Assembly: GCA_022760475.1 (NCBI GenBank)
Contig: JALEFZ010000095.1
Span: forward strand, 62,001-126,000
Source: Bacteroidia bacterium
GTDB taxonomy: Bacteria > Bacteroidota > Bacteroidia > J057
Direction of reading: 5' to 3'
Length of the DNA: 64,000 nt
Position numbers and translations under genes: made by a program. The notes beneath the pieces are model-generated. The model was not told the DNA's origin. It made no database searches and saw only the letters and a list, made by a program, of their open reading frames with translations. Shown in pieces: positions 210 through 54,172 of this stretch (positions within the stretch are counted from its first letter, which is position 1; every line of letters begins with the position of its first letter).

Positions 210-2498
210 TCATTCCCATTTTTTATACCACTCCTCCAGGACTTCTTCAGCTTCCTTACCACAAGGAGTGAAGCTCTTCTGCACAGATTTGGCATAGCCG
301 AGATAGGATGGCCATTTCCACCAATAAGCTCCCTTGAACCAGGGCTGCCCATCTAAAGCCTTTAGGGAGGCCTGGTAAGACCTACTTTGGGCAAGCTTGT
401 CAACTCCTCGGCCATTGGGTTCTTCATGAGGATTTTTCCATGCCTTTTCTACCGAACGGTAACCCACTTCGGTAAACACAATGGGTTTTTGAGTCCTGTT
501 ATAAATCGCCTCCATTTTCTTATTGATGGCCATCGCCCCTTGAAGCAATTCTTCATCACTGGGTTCATCCTTTTCACTTAAGGGATAATAAGAGTTCACA
601 CCTATGAAGTCCAGTTCATCAGCAAATGCAATCTTCTCGGCTTCATCCCCCCAATTTGCTGCATAGGTAACCGGACCACGGTATACCTCTCGCACATCCT
701 TCACCAATTGACGCCAGAGTTCGGGATTCTCCAGGGTAGCATTGACAAATTCTACCCCTACACAGAAATATTCAAAGTCAAACATCGCAGCAACCATGGC
801 ATAATGCATGATCCATTGTTTGTAGTAATTGTGCCACGCTAGCCAATCTTCTTTGCTCTCCATTTTGACAGCCCCAGGCCATGCTCCACCATAGTATATC
901 TGAGGCTTCAACAGGCTCTTTAACTCATATTCCGAAGCATGATACCTGGCAAAAACAATGCTCATGGAGTTTTCCCCTCCTGCGCCTTCCCATAAACGAT
1001 ATTTTTGTGGCTTGCTGGTATTTCTACTTCCCGAATAAGGCACAATGGCTATTGAGTTTCCATGTAATCTATGGATTTTAGACAATGCCTCCTTTCCAAG
1101 CTGGGAGGCGTAGCCGTCGTATACGTTGTAGCCCTCATGGGCGAAGGTCATTCCCCTGTGAAACTGCAATGATGCTGGAGTTCGGGCCTCTGGGGTTTGA
1201 CCAAATGAAGCCAGGTACTCTTTATATTCTTGAAAAAACGGTTTAATGAGTTCTTGTGATGACTCGGGATCGTTGCAGGCTTGAACCAATACTTCCTTGT
1301 GCTTTTCTGCCAAAAAATGTATCAAACCACCCACGGTAGCTCCCCTGATATACATGGAGCTTCTTTCATAATTTTGATTATCCCAAAGGTCTTCCTCTGG
1401 AAGCAAGGCATTGGCTTTCTGAAGTCGAATCGCCCATTCTAGGGCACCTTTTTTTTGCCACTTGGAAGAAAAGAAGTGAGAAAATCCCTCAGCCAGGAAG
1501 TCAGGAAAACGCTTGCCCCAAAGACTCTGAACCAAATATCCATTAAAGGACTCAAACTCCTGATCCAAGACTGCCCTATGGTAAATCTCATGGACTTGGG
1601 CGTTTCGGAAGTCGGAATATCCCTGAAACATCTTCCGCCTTTGCATGCCCATCAATTCTGCATCTTTATACAAATGGTAAACAAAGGGGGTAGGCTCAGG
1701 GAAAGAATCGAAAAAACTTTGGATTTGTTGCCATCGGAGCTCGACCCGTTGGTTTACCTCCTTTTTTTGATTTTCTGTGAGGTCAAAACCGTGAGCTTTC
1801 AGTGAGAACACTGGCCCTTTGATGACAAACTCCTTTTCATTTACAAAATTCCAGGAACGCTCAGCATCATATTCCCAGGACTCTCCAAAGAGTCCAAGTA
1901 GTAGTCTCTCCGACTTTCTTGATACCTCAAACCCATAATTACTCCATAATGGATTTGAGAAATCGGTCATAGAGGGTCCAGTCAGTTTATCCGTAATGGC
2001 TTGATCACTTAAGCCAGTAATTATATTCAGGGGATTTTGGGGATTGAGTGGATTAGGAATGAAGTTTAACCCAAGGCTGGTCAGTGGGTCTGTAAAAAGT
2101 TCATTGGCGAGCTCCAATTGAGTTGAACTTATGGAAACGGGCAGCTTGTTTCGGATCTTTTCAATAATGGGATTTCCTGCTGTTGTCCCGATCAAAAGGC
2201 ATGGATGGTTCACGATGAGGCTGTCATCTACTTCAGCAGCTTGGTGTAGTTCAATGCCATACCATGAAGGTAGGTTTTTCTTGATATTGGTGAGTAGTTC
2301 GGCCCATTTCTCTGTAGTTTCAGCTTGCTCCCCTTGATAGATCACCTGCATTTTTCTTTCCTGCCGGAACTTTCTTATTAATTCTGCCCGGGTAGGCAAG
2401 TTCGTTGAACTTTGCTGGGCTTTGCTGGCAGGGGGGCTACAGGCCAGTAATCCGCCAAGGCTTAGCGAGATGATGGAAAAAATCCTAAGTAGGTTCAT
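210..2498 (-). CDS. Lipoprotein: gluzincin-like HExxH domain fused to a GH113-like glycoside hydrolase
   Basis: A 762-residue protein, starting at the ATG at 2498 because this gives a clean lipoprotein leader with lipobox LLAC (Cys20); the longer open frame to 2543 does not. The N-terminal half carries HEIYH (about residues 303-307), followed 30 residues later by the Glu of AEGFSHFF (about 337). That is the zinc-site layout of gluzincin metallopeptidases such as M1, although the spacing is longer than the usual 18-19. The C-terminal half (about 465-762) looks like a TIM-barrel glycosidase of the GH113/GH5 type: the Glu in VGVEF (about 583) is the likely acid/base, FTEVGYRS (about Glu677) the likely nucleophile, with WWKW near the end. 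GH113 enzymes act on beta-mannan; the substrate here is not shown. The protein should sit on a membrane or the cell surface. The peptidase activity is inference; the glycosidase call is firmer. Confidence 0.7.
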   Translation of the reverse strand: MNLLRIFSIISLSLGGLLACSPPASKAQQSSTNLPTRAELIRKFRQERKMQVIYQGEQAETTEKWAELLTNIKKNLPSWYGIELHQAAEVDDSLIVNHPCLLIGTTAGNPIIEKIRNKLPVSISSTQLELANELFTDPLTSLGLNFIPNPLNPQNPLNIITGLSDQAITDKLTGPSMTDFSNPLWSNYGFEVSRKSERLLLGLFGESWEYDAERSWNFVNEKEFVIKGPVFSLKAHGFDLTENQKKEVNQRVELRWQQIQSFFDSFPEPTPFVYHLYKDAELMGMQRRKMFQGYSDFRNAQVHEIYHRAVLDQEFESFNGYLVQSLWGKRFPDFLAEGFSHFFSSKWQKKGALEWAIRLQKANALLPEEDLWDNQNYERSSMYIRGATVGGLIHFLAEKHKEVLVQACNDPESSQELIKPFFQEYKEYLASFGQTPEARTPASLQFHRGMTFAHEGYNVYDGYASQLGKEALSKIHRLHGNSIAIVPYSGSRNTSKPQKYRLWEGAGGENSMSIVFARYHASEYELKSLLKPQIYYGGAWPGAVKMESKEDWLAWHNYYKQWIMHYAMVAAMFDFEYFCVGVEFVNATLENPELWRQLVKDVREVYRGPVTYAANWGDEAEKIAFADELDFIGVNSYYPLSEKDEPSDEELLQGAMAINKKMEAIYNRTQKPIVFTEVGYRSVEKAWKNPHEEPNGRGVDKLAQSRSYQASLKALDGQPWFKGAYWWKWPSYLGYAKSVQKSFTPCGKEAEEVLEEWYKKWE

Positions 2499-15500: not shown

Positions 15501-16302
15501 TTTCCTTTGGAGCAGCATCAATGGGGGTGGAAACATTGTAGACTCCATTACTGTAAATATTCCTGCTGGCCCACAAAGGATCAACCTGAACTTCAGAATT
15601 CCAGGACCGGGTATATACAGTGTAGGTGGTACTTCTATTGACCTATTCAGAAACAGTGAGAATGCCGCTTACCCATATGTGATCAACGGAATCCTTTCTA
15701 TCAACTCATCATCTGCAACGACAGGACCATCTGAGTTCTACTATTATCTATATGATTGGGAAGTAAGGGGTCCTTCTTGTGTGAGTGAACTGGTACCAGT
15801 TACGGTTACGGTTTCTTCAGCAGACTTCAGTTTTGTAGAAGACAGCACAAATAGAACCTTTACCTTCACAGATGAATCTGACGATGCTACTTCATGGTCA
15901 TGGGACTTTGGTGATGGCAATACTTCTACCCTACAGAATCCCGTTCATACCTATGCACTTCCAGGCGACTACAGGGTTACCCTTGTGATCAATGGAAGCT
16001 GTTTTAAGGAGGACTCAATCAAAGCATCTATCATTGCAGGGCTAGAAGATTTGAATCAAATGGACATTAAGCTGTTGCCAAATCCTGCCAGCAAGCGCAC
16101 CTTGCTTAGTTTTGGTGAGTCATTCAACTATGACGTTGCACTAAGGATGACCAACATGGAGGGAAAACTTATTGAGAACAGAACTTTGAAAGCCGGTTCT
16201 CAAGAGATTTCATGGGACCTTCAAAACCTGAGCAAAGGAATTTACTTTATCCAGGTTCAGGCGAAGGAGAAAACACAGACAATCAAGCTGTTGGTTGAAT
16301 GA
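12574..16302 (+). CDS. Secreted M36 fungalysin-type metallopeptidase with PA insert, two PKD domains and T9SS tail
   Basis: 1242 residues from the ATG at 12574, with a signal peptide ending near VDAQA. An FTP/PepSY-like propeptide (about 28-200) precedes the catalytic domain. Zinc ligands are His576 and His580 in HEYGH (Glu577 catalytic) and Glu604 in EGWSD, the M36 arrangement. A protease-associated (PA) domain is inserted before the active site (KIAVVRRGNCNFVDKV, about 470-550). PKD domains with WDFGDG lie near 785-865 and 1082-1155, separated by an Ig-like region. The last 85 residues are a T9SS sorting domain beginning at LLPNPASKR. It should digest extracellular protein after propeptide removal. 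It stands in tandem with a paralogue at 16456, and a terminator follows at 16319. Confidence 0.92.
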   Translation: MNMLTKHLKMLAIILAGFLFFPQKVDAQAFQKGLLQKHLSTFAQEKGFSQADVSDWDITHSHTTSHNGVSHVYIQQQYQGIPIYNAVANFALQDGKVVHMNQSFAKRLSQSVNTSQPGMNASQAIAEACQKLGLANPSNLEEMEYRKGGYIIFTDGGVSQAEIPVRLMYQPGPEGELFLSYDLAIMPNSGQDWWSVRIDANTGELRSKENWMQSCSFPDHPKGIHKHSHNHKHSHFSHVAARQANMMGGTYRVFPYFTESPNHGPRQLIVNPSDSLASPFGWHDTDGVAGAEFTITRGNNVWASEDRDADNQPGYSPDGGAGLVFDFPLNLSLQPDSSLDAAITNLFYKNNVIHDIFYYYGFTEAAGNFQANNYNRGGVDDDFVFADALDGGGLNNATFGTPPDGFNPRMTMFLWSPAGSVNVLTVNSPATVAGGYPGNVATFGPAIPAAGITADLVLATDGLGDPNDACDPLTNGPSLSGKIAVVRRGNCNFVDKVQAAQTAGALAVIIVNNVGGGSFSPGGNGPAITIPSVMISQADGNAIIAALNGGLTVNGTLNDAISPNIDGDYDNGIITHEYGHGISIRLTGGAATSNCLSNAEQMGEGWSDYFTLMLGLDTSFTDRGIGTFAIGQGITGGGIRPARYSRDLSINPFTYAATNQTGSISQPHGIGFVWCTMLWDMTLDLIDTYGYDSDIYSGSGGNNIALQLVVDGLKLQSCNPGFVDGRDAILLADRLNNGGANQCLIWEAFARRGLGVGASQGSSGSRTDQVEAFDLPTVCQTPTAPPFANYSFTIDQICGTRVQFTDLSQSTPQAWRWDFGDGATDTVRNPSHEYSQGGTYIVKLVVTNSLGMDSSLKNILITLPAGPTAADQNTCIGGQVLLTASGGARYFWQTSQGDTISTNPQLPTPPLFDDTTFFVSQITDGDTNNVGPIDGSFAAGGYHNTGFTGALNFEAFSEFELISAWVDAGSPGPRTIFLWSSINGGGNIVDSITVNIPAGPQRINLNFRIPGPGIYSVGGTSIDLFRNSENAAYPYVINGILSINSSSATTGPSEFYYYLYDWEVRGPSCVSELVPVTVTVSSADFSFVEDSTNRTFTFTDESDDATSWSWDFGDGNTSTLQNPVHTYALPGDYRVTLVINGSCFKEDSIKASIIAGLEDLNQMDIKLLPNPASKRTLLSFGESFNYDVALRMTNMEGKLIENRTLKAGSQEISWDLQNLSKGIYFIQVQAKEKTQTIKLLVE

Positions 16303-19400: not shown

Positions 19401-20907
19401 TATTATCTTGAGGGATGCCTATTCGGGAGGGGGAAACATCATTGGTAATGCCTCATTTTCAATTAATCAAGTGGGTGGGCAAAGGGTTCAGTTAAGTCTG
19501 AGAATTCCTGGACCAGGCCAATACAGCATTAGCGGCAATCTATACGGGCTTTACCGAAATGATCAAGGCAGTTACCCCTATTTTTTACAGGGAGTTGCAA
19601 GCATCAGTTCTGGGTATGGGAGCATAGGAAGTGGCCCTTATTATTCATTTTATGATTGGGAACTCAGTGAACCGGATTGCCAGACGGATTTTTCGGTGGC
19701 GAATGTGCGGGTTGTGGATCCTTCTTTCACCTTTTCCCCTCAGACAGCTTCCGGAGAGGTGAGCTTTAGCAATTCCACCAACAATGGCCAGACATGGCTT
19801 TGGGACTTTGGTGATGGCAATACCGCCAACAGCCAGAATCCTATTCATACTTATCATGCAACAGGAACTTATCTGGTCAGCCTGAGCGTAAACGGGCTTT
19901 GCGTTTTCCAGGATAGCATTCAGATTGTTAGCCTGGCCAGGCCAATTGCAGATTTTGGGTCTCAAATCTCAAGCAGTTGTAGCAGCGTGCTTACCTTTAC
20001 AGATTCCTCTGTTCAACTGCCTGAATCCTGGATCTGGGATTTTGGAGATGGGAATATGGACAGCGCACAAAATCCCGTTCATCGCTATGAAGAGAGTGGA
20101 AGCTACCCTGTTACCCTTATTGTAAGCAATGGGCAAGGTGCTGATACCATTCAAAAAATTGTAAAGGTAAACTTGCCTGCTGGACCTGTGCTTGCAGATG
20201 AGATCATTTGCGAAGGGGATAGCATTAATTTGACAGCTTCGGGTTCAGGAACATACATTTGGTTTGATGTAGTTGGAGATACTCTTTTTAGAGGAAGTAC
20301 ATTTGGTACAGGCTCATTATTCAAGGATAGCAGTTATTTTATTAGGGAAGTTTTCTTGAATTCAATGGGTGAGATCGAATGTTTCAGCGAATTGGTAGAA
20401 GTAAAGGTCGAGGTATCTATTGCGGATTTTAGCTTCTTGGAAGTGAACCCTCCAGGCACAGTTGAATTTACCGACCTGTCGAAGGACGCCATTTCATGGT
20501 TGTGGGACTTTGGAGATGGCAACACATCTACTTTGCGAGACCCTATTCATTTCTACAATTCAATAGGGAATTATGAAGTTAGGCTAAGAATCAATGGAAG
20601 GTGTACGCACAAAGATACAATAGCAGTAACTTTGCTGAATAATGAGGCCCTTCTAGCTATACCAGCTTTCAGGCTGATTCCCAATCCGACACAAGGCAAA
20701 TGTGAACTGGTTTTTGGTAAGCCAACAGTCGAAAAATTCCAAGCCAGGATACTGAACCTTTCAGGGCAGGTAGTTAACGAAATGTCATTGGCAGCGGGAT
20801 TGCAGTCGTATACACTTGAGTTGGAGAACCTAAGTCCAGGAATCTATTTCCTTGAAGTTCAGTCATCTAAATCACGACAAGGCATTAAATTCATCATTAG
20901 CGAATAA
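16456..20907 (+). CDS. Secreted M36 fungalysin-type metallopeptidase with four PKD domains and T9SS tail
   Basis: 1483 residues from the ATG at 16456, which gives a standard signal peptide (ICLFPIQKVISQ); the open frame reaches a TTG at 16411. It is a paralogue of the upstream gene in the same domain order: propeptide, M36 catalytic domain with HEYGH (His581, Glu582, His585) and Glu609 in EGWSD, and a PA insert. The PA insert is shorter and has lost most of the first copy's core motif. Four PKD domains follow (WSFGDG or WDFGDG near 820, 1115, 1190 and 1350) against two in the first copy, so the PKD-plus-spacer unit has been duplicated. The protein ends in a T9SS domain (LIPNPTQGK). All zinc ligands are present, so it should be an active secreted peptidase. 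Confidence 0.92.
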   Translation: MGKSIYPLHKISILGFCLFICLFPIQKVISQEKGLEIVNSHVQNLKIKPFTKEDFQHWTLSSNHTTSHNGVSHYYLQQNCNGIPVYLAIMNLAIKDGRVRAMGNRFIPHVNQRFNTDKPSISEEEAINFACKHLGIAIKEGLVQISSEKGGKKVFSKGKFSFEDIPVKLVYFPMADSSLKLCWDLSIYPKNGHHWWSMRIDASNGQVLDKVSWTLECKLPTHLHGKQGSGIPPHHHFKENFSSHATGNYRVFNYRVESPNFGSRSLEINPSDSLASPFGWHDTNGILGAEFTDTRGNNVDAYADLNGNNTPAFRPDGGINLVFDYPLDLNIPIDSLTNTDAAVTNLFYNSNILHDLLYYYGFTEAAGNFQRNNYNRGGLGNDEVLTEAQDGLSLNNAIFSSPPDGFNPRMQMFPFLPNLRGNYLHITSPNSVARSYEAVPAIFSPRPAASPILGKVVLAEDTVGLPYDGCESPINLNEIAGNFVLLDLVGCPPTEKILEMQNAGAAAVLYYLPISRPPFPLGGNPASPVTIPSLMIAKEDADSLLIVLMAGDSIFASLSDPFMGAPKPLIASDYANGVIAHEYGHGVSTRLTGGRLNATCLRNDEQMGEGWSDFFYLYMSLDTAIKNRGIGTYILDQNPIGPGVRERKYSQDTAINEYTYASTNDPMLTTKPHGIGMVWANMLWEMTFDLIDVYGYDPDLYTGTGGNNIALQLIMDGLSLQPCQPGFVDGRDAILMADSLNNGGANQCLIWQAFARRGLGLSANQGSPTNRSDQIEAFDLPASCIIPVAPPIASFGFQIEDSCSLKIQFLDQSDSIPTNWSWSFGDGTTDSVADPLHSFPSSGTYQVRLVVSNPLGSDTISQQITISLPAGPQLTDQEICLGDSIQFSLPANGNYTWTSTTGDTLANTPTFSIPQINRDTSFLVSQFIQGIMAQLGPADSSFGPGSYPPNRSRDFGGTNFEAFRPFTLVSAWIHADTVGSWSIILRDAYSGGGNIIGNASFSINQVGGQRVQLSLRIPGPGQYSISGNLYGLYRNDQGSYPYFLQGVASISSGYGSIGSGPYYSFYDWELSEPDCQTDFSVANVRVVDPSFTFSPQTASGEVSFSNSTNNGQTWLWDFGDGNTANSQNPIHTYHATGTYLVSLSVNGLCVFQDSIQIVSLARPIADFGSQISSSCSSVLTFTDSSVQLPESWIWDFGDGNMDSAQNPVHRYEESGSYPVTLIVSNGQGADTIQKIVKVNLPAGPVLADEIICEGDSINLTASGSGTYIWFDVVGDTLFRGSTFGTGSLFKDSSYFIREVFLNSMGEIECFSELVEVKVEVSIADFSFLEVNPPGTVEFTDLSKDAISWLWDFGDGNTSTLRDPIHFYNSIGNYEVRLRINGRCTHKDTIAVTLLNNEALLAIPAFRLIPNPTQGKCELVFGKPTVEKFQARILNLSGQVVNEMSLAAGLQSYTLELENLSPGIYFLEVQSSKSRQGIKFIISE

Positions 20908-21236: not shown

Positions 21237-22205
21237 TCAATACCCTTGATTTACCAATGCAGGATTGCCCATTTTTCCGGATCTATAGTTCTGGATGCAC
21301 TGAATAATCTGTTGTTCATTATTCATCACAAATGGACCATAAGAATAAACTGTCTCCTTTAAAGGTTCCCCTCCTAAAATGAGAAACTCTGCGCCATGTT
21401 GGGAGTAAAGATTGATCAGGCTTTCTCCTCGGTTAAACAAAGCCAACTGATTTGCTACGAGAGCTTTTTGACCTTCAAGTTCCAGGCTTCCCTTTACCAC
21501 ATAGACAAAAGCATTGTGCCCAGGATTAGTGGGTAGATCCATCCTGCCATTCTCCTTCATTTTTACATGGAAGTAAAAAGCTGGACTCAAAAGGTCAATC
21601 TTCGATTTCTTACCAAAGGCTTCGCCAAGGATGACCTTCAGGGAATAATCCTTTTTATCCACGCTAGCCATGGAAGGATCTCTAAATACATCTGTAGACG
21701 GATCTATAAATTTATGTGCCGCAGGAATATTCAGCCAAATCTGAAATCCATGAACCCTGCCCCCCTCTTCAATCATCTTCTTTCCACCTTCTTCCATGTG
21801 GATGGCACCTTTACCGGAGTTGAACATCATGAATTCACCTCGGGAAATTTGAAAATCATAGTTGAGACTGTCTTTGTGATGCCCTGAACCTTCCAATAAA
21901 TAAGTAGTCGGGATAACCCCGGCATGTGGATGGGCTTCCACCTTATAAGGGTCCTTACCGGGAGTAATATCCACCGGACCAAACTCGTCCAGCAATACAT
22001 AGGGAGAAACCAGATCTGTATGCCCCCCAGCAAAAGCCCTGAGAATAGGAAGGGTCCCCACCATTGACTTATTGGCATCTAATATATAAGCAACTTTACG
22101 ATTGCCCTTCATCTCAAACATTCCCGAATTGGCCTTGAAAAATAAGGGAGTAGCTATGGTAGTCCCCAAAATAGCCGAGCCTTTTATGAATTTTCTACGT
22201 TTCAT
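21237..22205 (-). CDS. Pirin-family cupin protein with twin-arginine-type leader
   Basis: 322 residues. The N-terminus MKRRKFIKGSAILGTT is a twin-arginine-like leader common in Bacteroidota, so this pirin is probably exported folded, unlike cytoplasmic pirins. The pirin cupin carries the metal-binding set His92 and His94 (HPHAG) plus His136 and Glu138 (GAIHMEE), and the YLLEGSGHHKDS segment. Pirins bind Fe; some have quercetin 2,3-dioxygenase activity and others act in redox-linked regulation, so the substrate is not certain. It is divergent from the molybdopterin oxidoreductase at 22360. The intergenic stretch holds an 18-bp sequence identical to one before yceI at 40482, which suggests shared control. 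Confidence 0.87.
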   Translation of the reverse strand: MKRRKFIKGSAILGTTIATPLFFKANSGMFEMKGNRKVAYILDANKSMVGTLPILRAFAGGHTDLVSPYVLLDEFGPVDITPGKDPYKVEAHPHAGVIPTTYLLEGSGHHKDSLNYDFQISRGEFMMFNSGKGAIHMEEGGKKMIEEGGRVHGFQIWLNIPAAHKFIDPSTDVFRDPSMASVDKKDYSLKVILGEAFGKKSKIDLLSPAFYFHVKMKENGRMDLPTNPGHNAFVYVVKGSLELEGQKALVANQLALFNRGESLINLYSQHGAEFLILGGEPLKETVYSYGPFVMNNEQQIIQCIQNYRSGKMGNPALVNQGY

Positions 22206-22232: not shown

Positions 22233-22250
22233 AAACGATGTTTAAACAAC
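22233..22250. promoter_or_regulatory. Putative operator shared with yceI
   Basis: AAACGATGTTTAAACAAC, identical over 18 bp to 40482-40499. It contains the 10-bp palindrome TGTTTAAACA and lies between the divergent pirin (28 nt from its start) and oxidoreductase genes. The regulator is not known. Confidence 0.6.
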
Positions 22251-22359
22251 AAAGTTTAATTTACCCTCATTTTTTCCTTATACCTACAAAAATTTTCTAG
22301 TATCACAGGATTGATTCGAACTTTCTGTGGACTTATTTATATTGAAAAAAATTGGATTC

Positions 22360-40298: not shown

Positions 40299-40462
40299 GC
40301 GGCAATATTACGGATTTTTCAAAAGACAATTAGAACAGTTGAACATTCGATAATGATTTTTCTCCCGAGTTGGAAAGATGGAAGATTCAGGAAGGAATGA
40401 AAAATGTCTTTGAATTGACCATACAGAAAAAAAAGTCCAGTTTTTTCAAAACATTAATGTTC

Positions 40463-40499
40463 AAACATCGTTCATGATGTCAAACGATGTTTAAACAAC
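40463..40499. promoter_or_regulatory. Operator-like inverted repeats before yceI
   Basis: AACATCGTT (40464-40472) and AACGATGTT (40483-40491) are exact reverse complements. The right arm extends into AAACGATGTTTAAACAAC (40482-40499), identical to 22233-22250 before the pirin gene and holding the palindrome TGTTTAAACA. Just upstream lies the 10-bp palindrome ACATTAATGT. The site ends 20 nt before the start codon, where a repressor would block transcription. Confidence 0.65.
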
Positions 40500-40519
40500 C
40501 ATCACTTAACTTTCAAACA

Positions 40520-41104
40520 ATGAGAAATTTATTCCTATTGGCCTTGGCCTTTTTTTTCGCAAGCACTGCATCTGCACAGACTACCTGGGGTTTTGACGCT
40601 GTTCACTCTAACGTAGGATTCAGCATTACCCACCTTGTAATTTCTGAGGTAGATGGAAGTTTCGCCAAGTATGAAGGCAAACTAACTACTTCCAAGGAGG
40701 ACTTCACTGACGCCAACATTGACTTTTCTATAGATGTAGCATCCATTAACACTGGAAATGAAAAGCGTGATGGTCACCTGACAAGCCCTGACTTTTTTGA
40801 CGCGGCTAACCACCCAAAGATCACTTTCAAAGGAAAGTCTATGAAAAAAGTAAAAGGCAATAAGTACAAGTTGACTGGAGACCTTAGCATGAAAGGAGTT
40901 ACCAAAGAAGTTGAGCTAGACGTAAAATACTCTGGTACTGTACAAGATCCATACGGAAACACCAAAGCTGGATTCAAAATCACTGGTGAATTGAACAGAT
41001 TCGACTACGGTCTTAAGTGGGACGCTGCTACTGAAAGTGGTAACCTGGTAGTAAGCAAGGAAGTAGAATTGGACATCAATGTTCAGTTGGTAAAAATGAA
41101 GTAA
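40520..41104 (+). CDS. YceI-family periplasmic lipid-binding protein
   Basis: 194 residues from the ATG at 40520; the in-frame start at 40487 lies inside the operator and adds nothing conserved. Signal peptide MRNLFLLALAFFFASTASAQ, then the YceI lipocalin-like barrel: TTWGFDAVHSNVGFSITHL, GKLTTSKEDFTDANI, DGHLTSPDFFDAANHPKITFKG, and the closing NRFDYGLKWD. YceI proteins bind polyisoprenoids or fatty acid derivatives in the periplasm and are often induced by stress or alkaline pH in other bacteria. Shares an operator-like sequence with the pirin gene. A UUCG-loop terminator follows. Confidence 0.93.
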   Translation: MRNLFLLALAFFFASTASAQTTWGFDAVHSNVGFSITHLVISEVDGSFAKYEGKLTTSKEDFTDANIDFSIDVASINTGNEKRDGHLTSPDFFDAANHPKITFKGKSMKKVKGNKYKLTGDLSMKGVTKEVELDVKYSGTVQDPYGNTKAGFKITGELNRFDYGLKWDAATESGNLVVSKEVELDINVQLVKMK

Positions 41105-46400: not shown

Positions 46401-46440
46401 TTTTTTTAGAACGAATTGGAACCAATTCGTTCTAAAAAAA
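46401..46440. repeat. Perfect 19-bp palindrome
   Basis: TTTTTTTAGAACGAATTGG (46401-46419), a two-base AA loop, then the exact reverse complement (46422-46440). The T-run lies 5' and the A-run 3' on either strand, so it cannot work as a standard terminator. It may be a protein-binding palindrome or an element end. Confidence 0.9.
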
Positions 46441-53300: not shown

Positions 53301-54064
53301 GTATCAACACTACCACTACCCTTGGAGACCTTGATGGAGATGATGACTACGATGAGATCTACGTATACGGTGCCCGTTCATTCTCTATCTGGGACAAATA
53401 TGGAAACCAGGTTTGGGACAGCGGAAACGACTTTGGTAAAATCGTAGCAGACTCTGTACCTGCTCACTTCAACTCTACCAATGACGACAACGATTCCTTC
53501 GACAACCGTTCTGATGACAAGGGTACTGAGCCTGAGGCCATCGAACTGGGTACAGTAGACGGAACTGTTTATGCCTTCATCGGTCTTGAGAGAATGGGTG
53601 GAATCATGGTATATGACGTTACTGATCCTAAGGCTCCTGTATTCGTAGAGTACGAGCTAAACAGAGACTTCAACTTCCCTGCTGACACTTCAGCGGCTGG
53701 AGACCTTGCTCCAGAGGACATCAAGTTTATCACTGGTGATGACAGCCCGGTTCCTGGAACTGCCATGATCGCTGTTGCAAACGAAGTATCGGGTACAGTT
53801 ACCCTTTACTCTGTAGGTGATAAGTTGAGCATCAATGTAGAGGAGGAAGTAGAAACCAACACTCCATTGGTGGTATATCCCAACCCTGTAAACGGAAGCC
53901 AGTTGTTCTTCAACAAAGTTGGCAACTACACCATCTTCAACATGGTTGGACAGCAAGTAGCTACAGTTGAGAACGCCAAAAACGTAAACGTATCAAGCCT
54001 TAAGCCTGGTGTTTATGTGATTCGTTCTGACAAGAATGAGGCGACTCGTTTTGTTAAGAAGTAA
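50393..54064 (+). CDS. Secreted choice-of-anchor-I protein with phytase-like and lamin-tail domains and T9SS tail
   Basis: 1223 residues from the ATG at 50393, signal peptide ending near LSAFGQ. Residues of about 25-265 are the first part of a choice-of-anchor-I propeller (STYDAGSFDEGAAEIVAYYGNRLFL). About 290-790 holds an 'esterase-like activity of phytase' domain (GGFSGLWYDAA, AIPDRGPNDGAVN), itself interrupted by a lamin-tail-type domain (about 480-590, FSEYAEGSSNNKYLEIYNPTD). The choice-of-anchor-I part then resumes (YDFNGDTYIFTANEGDARDYDGFSEEERAGD), and a T9SS domain ends the protein (VVYPNPVNGSQLF). Probably a cell-surface enzyme or binding protein; phosphate release is only suggested by the phytase-like domain. 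Codon use looks strongly biased, as in highly expressed genes. Confidence 0.82.
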   Translation: MKISTQVIILVLMIATSLSAFGQSKVLNFVSTYDAGSFDEGAAEIVAYYGNRLFLTNAENDALDIIDITDPFKPTLIRSIDITTYGEGLNSVATSSSGNVAMAIEGMDQMPGKIVVLDTAGALIAEYAAGVLPDMVTFTPDGNYIISANEGEPNDDYDVDPEGSITVVDISGGAATGVVSQITLTAWNDQKYSLINAGVRIFGVDSTNSDLIANVANDLEPEYVTVDPNSDSIAYVVCQENNAMIVIDYKNAVAVDILPFGFKDHSTGTATLQEFRINDLPNLPTLGTPVYGGGQPTVKLGGFSGLWYDAARSTSTNAVFYAIPDRGPNDGAVNRSTLTRPMAKNLRPFKLPDYQARIVKFSVDLTTNTLTLDSADQIFLTAPDGVTPISGRGNIPTIDEVPVTYTDPNTPYNDSSFFDGTTYYHQLPYDPYGGDFEGIFRAPGSGNYFMVDEYRPAIYAFNSTGVMLARYIPGAIGKEIFFSEYAEGSSNNKYLEIYNPTDSTIDFNNYLLVNCSNGCNVAGEWDFDNTALIANKTLAPGEVFVIAHPSAQADILAQADTTFQFLSNGDDWYGIVRASDSSIVDQVGEFSVTDPGSGWDVAGVPAGTRDQTLIRKRFVTKGNADWNIAASGDSINSEWIVEIRPTADTVLATLGSHEADYTEYAIDNLGTNGLTLPAVYNNRRANRGFEAIALDTDRIRIAAFIQTPMDNPNSGVRHSDVVRILMVNGGGVPVAEYVYLLEQNSRSRFGISRVDKIGDAVYIGNDKYWVLERDSSNPDEEEGKKYVFEIDLSGATNILGTELSNRTEGATLESMSADELAAMGIRPAAKRKVVNLPSIGYLASDKPEGLALIPGVGMAVLNDNDFGLAGAGVSDNSILGIICFGDNYSLDASNRDDSIRFENWNVFGMYQPDATKAYDFNGDTYIFTANEGDARDYDGFSEEERAGDLDLDPVAFPDFANLQMDENLGRINTTTTLGDLDGDDDYDEIYVYGARSFSIWDKYGNQVWDSGNDFGKIVADSVPAHFNSTNDDNDSFDNRSDDKGTEPEAIELGTVDGTVYAFIGLERMGGIMVYDVTDPKAPVFVEYELNRDFNFPADTSAAGDLAPEDIKFITGDDSPVPGTAMIAVANEVSGTVTLYSVGDKLSINVEEEVETNTPLVVYPNPVNGSQLFFNKVGNYTIFNMVGQQVATVENAKNVNVSSLKPGVYVIRSDKNEATRFVKK

Positions 54065-54140: not shown

Positions 54141-54172
54141 AACCCTGACAGGGTTATAACCCTGTCAGGGCT
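54141..54172. repeat. Palindromic repeat, copy 2 of 2
   Basis: AACCCTGACAGGGTT-AT-AACCCTGTCAGGGCT, the same hairpin as at 21150-21182 with one end mismatch and a one-base shorter loop. It lies between convergent genes next to a terminator. Confidence 0.85.

Follow-up and report, generated by a model that had tools for sequence, protein, structure and literature searches.

The 64-kb stretch of DNA that was analysed (the window) holds one 18-bp sequence, AAACGATGTTTAAACAAC, at two places, 22233–22250 and 40482–40499, directly upstream of a pirin and a yceI gene, respectively. The question raised by this locus is why two single genes should have the same sequence in their promoter regions. That they do, as an earlier note on this DNA had claimed, is real: allowing up to three mismatches gave no further match in the 64-kb window, and 100 dinucleotide shuffles of the window gave on average 0.03 matches to the 18-mer and never two. 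Pattern searches over the complete genome (6.86 Mb, 96 contigs) returned the exact 18-mer only twice, upstream of pirin and yceI. The sequences flanking the two copies are unrelated. Fifteen 18-mers are repeated in the window, nearly all of the others in paired long open reading frames (ORFs) or in local inverted repeats. Separate from these promoters, an identical stretch of 23 bp (around GGGACTTTGGTGATGGCAATAC) is found at 15901–15923 and 19801–19823 in two neighboring very long ORFs and probably reflects a repeated protein domain. A long perfect inverted repeat (CCCTGACAGGGTTATAACCCTGTCAGGG, 54143–54170) lies past a large ORF ending at 54064, and another one with T/A-rich ends (CCAATTCGTTCTAAAAAAA, 46401–46440) is located between two genes and resembles a terminator.

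The core TGTTTAAACA is a perfect palindrome, as had been noticed before. The conserved unit is an 18-bp palindrome at 22235–22252 and 40484–40501, with respect to which the 18-mer is off-center. The alignment of 29 sites gave the consensus TYRATGTTT-AAACATYRA, a 9-9 bp palindrome. The pirin locus comprises the following features:

22235..22252, minus strand: putative pirin operator, 18-bp palindrome with the core TGTTTAAACA at 22239–22248, which reads TTGTTGTTTAAACATCGT on the pirin strand and holds most of the 18-mer
22250..22257, minus strand: inferred promoter AAACTTTG, one mismatch compared to the Bacteroidota −7 box TAnnTTTG, directly adjacent to the operator
21237..22205, minus strand: pirin family protein of 322 amino acids with Pirin and Pirin_C domains (start 22205, end 21237)

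The assignment to the pirins is based on Pfam scores of 62.4 bits for Pirin (cut-off 26.1) and 97.4 bits for Pirin_C (cut-off 27). The distance between the ATG and the motif is 27 nt and not 28 nt as given earlier, while the 20 nt stated for yceI were correct. Placed against the inferred −7 box, the single site of the pirin promoter would cover the transcription start. The sequence TTTGTTGTTTAAACATCGTT is common to this promoter and the yceI-marR upstream region of a genome from another genus (G006). The site also lies upstream of a divergently oriented molybdopterin oxidoreductase gene (ORF from 22327, plus strand; intervening region 22251–22326), which is possibly affected by the same operator.

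The yceI promoter region is more complex:

40454..40471, plus strand: putative yceI operator A, TTAATGTTCAAACATCGT, core TGTTCAAACA at 40458–40467
40484..40501, plus strand: putative yceI operator B, ACGATGTTTAAACAACCA, core TGTTTAAACA at 40488–40497, holding most of the 18-mer
40464..40491, no strand: inverted repeat AACATCGTT/AACGATGTT, arising from the two oppositely oriented operators
40520..41104, plus strand: yceI, encoding a YceI family protein of 194 amino acids with an N-terminal signal-peptide-like stretch

The YceI domain (PF04264) scored 164.7 bits (cut-off 23.7), and the real start of yceI is the ATG at 40520, which is followed by the signal peptide MRNLFLLALAFFF and is the start from which the 20 nt are counted. 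Proteins of this family are periplasmic, bind polyisoprenoids or quinones and have a lipocalin-like fold. A −7 box was looked for in the yceI promoter of the window, but not found. The inverted repeat reported earlier does exist (40464–40472 and 40483–40491) and is explained by a second full site, ATGTTCAAACAT, whose center is located 30 bp upstream of that of the first and which has the opposite orientation. An RNA hairpin formed by this repeat in the 5′ untranslated region would be a different explanation, and the 18-mer could also be a mobile or duplicated repeat rather than a protein-binding site. We consider both very improbable, even though the leader of yceI folds a little more stably than its shuffled versions (z −1.84) and that of G004 more so (z −2.65): the leader of G006 does not (z −0.42), the hairpin is not conserved in relatives, the leader has no match in Rfam, and the pirin promoter carries a single site with no partner. 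Folding is a by-product of palindromic operators, and two exact copies per genome with unrelated flanks argue against a mobile element.

A candidate for the protein that binds these sites was provided by the genome itself. The earlier note had suggested as checks a genome-wide search for the motif and a look for a MarR, HxlR, or TetR gene with the same site, and both spoke in favor of its interpretation: the motif is rare, and the third-best genomic match (two mismatches, identical core) lies ahead of a gene of the MarR family, at a distance of 61 nt:

contig C70, locus L003, 1578–2051, plus strand: marR, encoding a MarR-family protein of 158 amino acids

Both MarR domain profiles matched the C70 protein (PF12802, 40.3 bits, cut-off 27; PF01047, 38.5 bits, cut-off 24.6). 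The AlphaFold2 model (mean pLDDT 88) displays helices, two wing strands (92–96 and 104–108) and a predicted recognition helix (79–88), and it superimposes on the MftR–DNA complex 8ylg with a Z score of 15.7 (rmsd 2.4 over 149 residues). A palindromic operator of 16–20 bp is expected for this family, and the 18-bp palindrome is found at the promoter of marR itself as well as at yceI, pirin, and mhqO.

Four exact copies of TTGTTTAAACAT are present in the genome, three of them at pirin, yceI, and marR. The relaxed core WTGTTYRAACAW gave 18 sites, six of which lie ahead of, and at most 125 bp away from, pirin, yceI (two sites), a second yceI (yceI2, 119 nt), marR, or an mhqO-mhqD operon (82 nt). 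The latter encodes a ring-cleaving dioxygenase, which matches PDB entry 3oaj ("putative ring-cleaving dioxygenase mhqO") with an E value of 6e-75, and an MhqD-type carboxylesterase. A gene for a SnoaL-like protein is also preceded by the site. Nearly all remaining WTGTTYRAACAW sites lie in coding DNA or ahead of unrelated genes, and the total of 18 barely exceeds background (13 for the reversed-pattern control in the same genome). Because of this and because not every yceI or pirin gene has a site, the site alone is insufficient to define the regulon; the striking part is the identity of the downstream genes.

Several further genes with degenerate or distant sites are candidates only. These encode a DoxX protein (C19:6897), a superoxide dismutase (SodA, C22:12411), a Dps-like protein (C59:161265), a UbiA-like protein (C17:109911), a BrxA-like protein together with a thioredoxin (C49:364208), and a second MhqO (C70:217401). 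The sodA gene, recognized by eye, is preceded at 19 nt by TAATTGTTTCAACATTAA (locus L199, site 1501). The Dps-like gene, likewise recognized by eye and without a match in Pfam, follows TCAATGTTTTAACATCGT (locus L221, site 1566), which shares the CATCGT extension, at a distance of 57 nt. Four other sites were rejected. The luciferase-like monooxygenase gene at C49:7670 has three orthologues without a site, and there was no support in relatives for C94:9873 (a perfect core ahead of an unrelated gene for a 930-aa protein), C73:21222 (ahead of a gene for a large PIG-L/LmbE-type protein), and C13:153670 (where a coding frame begins).

Related genomes provided independent evidence for the main idea of the earlier note. 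All 13 genomes of the family have an orthologue of the C70 MarR, as do most of the 60 relatives that were examined. The gene adjoins yceI in G002, G004, G006, G033, G034, and G046, among others (at least seven further genomes), which confirms the adjacency of MarR and YceI for other Bacteroidota; the earlier note had mentioned MarR-type repressors as occasional neighbors of pirin and yceI genes. The gene order marR-yceI-mhqO-mhqD is present in Nitritalea halalkaliphila and Algoriphagus aestuariicola (L093, 10001–12911, and L111, 10001–12679, respectively), with ATGTATATACAT ahead of the cluster. Regulon genes that are dispersed in the window's genome are thus gathered in one place here.

The operator precedes yceI in G001, G002, G003, G004, G006 (both copies), G008, and G009, pirin in G003, G005, G006, G010, and G029, and mhqO in G007. 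At a distance of up to 150 bp from the start, a perfect core was detected for 6 of 18 yceI, 4 of 22 pirin, and 2 of 30 marR genes, compared to dinucleotide-shuffle expectations of 0.03, 0.01, and 0.02, respectively. Not all yceI and pirin genes carry the site, and no clear site was seen directly upstream of marR in roughly half of the family's 13 genomes. In an unbiased scan, all 68 WTGTTTAAACAW sites of the 13 family genomes were collected and the genes downstream listed. The 65 downstream proteins, six of them from the window's genome, included YceI (nine), pirin (seven), SnoaL-like proteins (four), glyoxalase/VOC proteins (three, two of which are MhqO), and MarR (two); a LigB-type extradiol dioxygenase (G008) and a thioredoxin are among those found once. 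When the window's genome was omitted, eight YceI (0.09 expected, P 6.8e-14) and six pirins (0.05 expected, P 1.9e-11) were left. The SnoaL-like orthologues with a site belong to the window's genome (G000), G001, G007, and G010.

A chance identity of two AT-rich upstream sequences, conceivable insofar as short AT-rich palindromes arise randomly (see the reversed-pattern control above), can be dismissed almost with certainty. It is at odds with the shuffles of the window and is refuted by the fact that the site is met again in other genera, ahead of the same families of genes (P of about 1e-11 to 1e-14).

The sites occupy two kinds of position. In the yceI promoters of G001 and G006, the site directly follows a TAnnTTTG −7 box on its downstream side and so covers the transcription start, and the pirin promoter of the window has a near match to this box; the box is exact in G001 yceI and in the second yceI of G006. 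In the cases of G005 marR, G007 mhqO, and L100 marR, the site is located approximately 30 bp upstream of TAnnTTTG and covers the −33 region. Several yceI promoters contain tandem sites 14 bp apart, compared to 30 bp and opposite orientation in the window. Both positions fit steric repression by occlusion, and the bound protein would probably act as a repressor.

The regulators and their operators vary in concert. Asp78 and Arg85 are present in the MarR proteins of 15 loci with TGTTTAAACA, Asn78 and Lys85 in those of six loci with TGTATATACA, so that all 21 loci agree. According to the AlphaFold2 model, residue 78 is at the start of the predicted recognition helix and residue 85 within it. A tree built without columns 78 and 85 shows three changes of operator type, one of them on well-supported branches, and each time both residues changed along with the operator. 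The covariation amounts to one to three independent events and is suggestive of a specificity code, but not statistically significant.

The sites could alternatively be bound by one of the two MarR relatives encoded in the genome, on contigs C19 and C91 (45% and 38% identity), or by an unrelated transcription factor, with the C70 marR as just another target. The existence of these relatives allows for this, as does G010, in which a further MarR-family gene is located divergently beside the SnoaL gene and has one site in common with it. However, the C19 paralogue has an Asn/Lys helix and the different palindrome TTTGTATATACAAA upstream, in accordance with the covariation rule, and it is the C70 orthologues that adjoin yceI and carry the site. 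We regard this alternative as unlikely. The C19 paralogue gene (L228, G000:C19:112600-117000; 1978–2403, minus strand) has TTTGTATATACAAA directly ahead of its start and is situated just upstream of an NADPH-dependent FMN reductase-like gene. In G008, a MarR paralogue with 38% identity is encoded directly upstream of a pirin gene (L174).

The shared sequence is probably the operator of the C70-encoded MarR, which would be an autoregulated repressor of a regulon for the detoxification of quinone- or quinol-type compounds. Judged from the sequence comparisons, the shared operator and the identity of the regulator are well supported. The binding of the regulator to the operator, its repressing effect, and the inducer are predictions, the latter two drawn from Firmicutes MhqR and E. 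coli YhaJ. A MarR dimer would bind the 18-bp palindrome TYRATGTTT-AAACATYRA. At the pirin promoter and related yceI promoters, where the site overlaps the −7 box or lies just downstream of it and covers the transcription start, bound protein would repress transcription; at marR and mhqO of the relatives, steric repression is expected from a site approximately 30 bp upstream of TAnnTTTG. The site of marR itself would mediate autoregulation. An aromatic or quinone-like ligand might release the repressor, and marR, yceI, pirin (quercetinase type), mhqO-mhqD, and the SnoaL-like gene would then be induced together.

In Bacillus subtilis and Staphylococcus aureus, the genes mhqRED, mhqNOP, azoR2, and mhqA make up the MhqR regulon, and the YhaJ regulon of Escherichia coli comprises yqjF, yhaK, yhhW, ygiD, and ybiJ. 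MarR folds are all alike, for which reason sequence and fold are a weak guide to MhqR orthology: profile searches with the C70 MarR matched S. aureus MhqR (9qdr) with 8.8e-13, whereas the nearest solved relative, 3u2r, scored far better (5.7e-28). Firmicutes MhqR is a MarR-type quinone repressor controlling mhqO and mhqD homologues, and its operator in S. aureus is a 9-9 bp palindrome at the transcription start (−6 to +12; PMC6798810). The system described here shares with it the regulator family, the palindrome architecture, the mhqO/mhqD homologues (assigned to the regulon by site and synteny only), and, as far as the geometry predicted for the pirin and some yceI promoters goes, the operator at the transcription start. 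It differs in the operator sequence (TYRATGTTT-AAACATYRA compared to TATCTCGAA-aTCGAaATA) and in the addition of yceI, pirin, and SnoaL genes. In addition, His111, which forms the quinone pocket of S. aureus MhqR together with F11, F39, and E43 (PMC12893000), has no counterpart in the C70 MarR, the only histidine of which is H18. The different operator and the absent histidine do not allow the C70 MarR to be called an orthologue of MhqR; it would work like MhqR without being classed as such.

The LysR-type regulator YhaJ controls the pirin genes yhaK and yhhW and the LigB-type ygiD via one promoter motif in response to quinol-like or aromatic compounds (PMC5031710). Pirins and a LigB-type dioxygenase recur here, the latter in G008, and DoxX is a weak candidate in the window's genome; on the other hand, the regulator gene carrying the site is of the MarR type, motif and phylum differ, and the YhaJ regulon is devoid of yceI. 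Palindromic operators and the fold (Z of approximately 15 to 8ylg MftR–DNA, 22oz HpaR, and 9qdr MhqR) are also shared with HpaR, MftR/PecS, and further MarR repressors that respond to ligands, the targets of which are different; the NCBIfam HpaR model gave 48 bits for the C70 MarR with a cut-off of 121.

A response to quinones, quinols, or aromatic compounds is the likeliest purpose of the regulon, since MhqR controls mhqO and mhqD, YhaJ controls pirins and a LigB-type gene, and YceI is of a polyisoprenoid- or quinone-binding type. The quinone-type signal suggested in the earlier note has gained support from the site at mhqO-mhqD and the joint marR-yceI-mhqO-mhqD clusters of two genera, with the signal itself deduced by analogy. 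It is also quite possible, if less than probable, that the operator is real and bound by MarR, but that its inducer is of another kind (antibiotics, fatty acids or isoprenoids, organic hydroperoxides, and plant phenolics are examples) and that the genes serve the envelope or a general stress response. Members of the MarR family sense many ligands, the absence of H111 means that the ligand may not be a quinone, and weaker candidate sites precede the oxidative-stress genes for SodA and the Dps-like protein. Thiol sensing is conceivable as well, with Cys97 present in 44 of 74 MarR orthologues. Against this, substrates of an aromatic or quinol kind are suggested by the genes that share the site (mhqO-mhqD, pirin, and those for dioxygenases of the LigB and VOC types) and by the precedent of YhaJ.

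While switches of this type are well known, the regulon itself seems to be undescribed: no literature joining MarR, pirin, and YceI or describing the regulon was found in a search that covered papers outside subscription journals, which is no proof of novelty. More tentatively, we put forward as a serious possibility a family-wide Bacteroidota MarR regulon that unites YceI, pirins, SnoaL-like, and MhqO/MhqD-type proteins in one quinone/quinol response, with Asp78/Arg85 or Asn78/Lys85 setting the specificity for TGTTTAAACA or TGTATATACA. Within the MarR family, this covariation of helix and operator offers a small, testable specificity code. YceI and the bacterial pirins are common proteins whose physiological roles are poorly settled. 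One MarR operator over yceI, pirin, and mhqO-mhqD across many genera suggests as their role the handling of quinol, quinone, or aromatic toxicants, and a yceI or pirin promoter could serve as a reporter for finding the signal.
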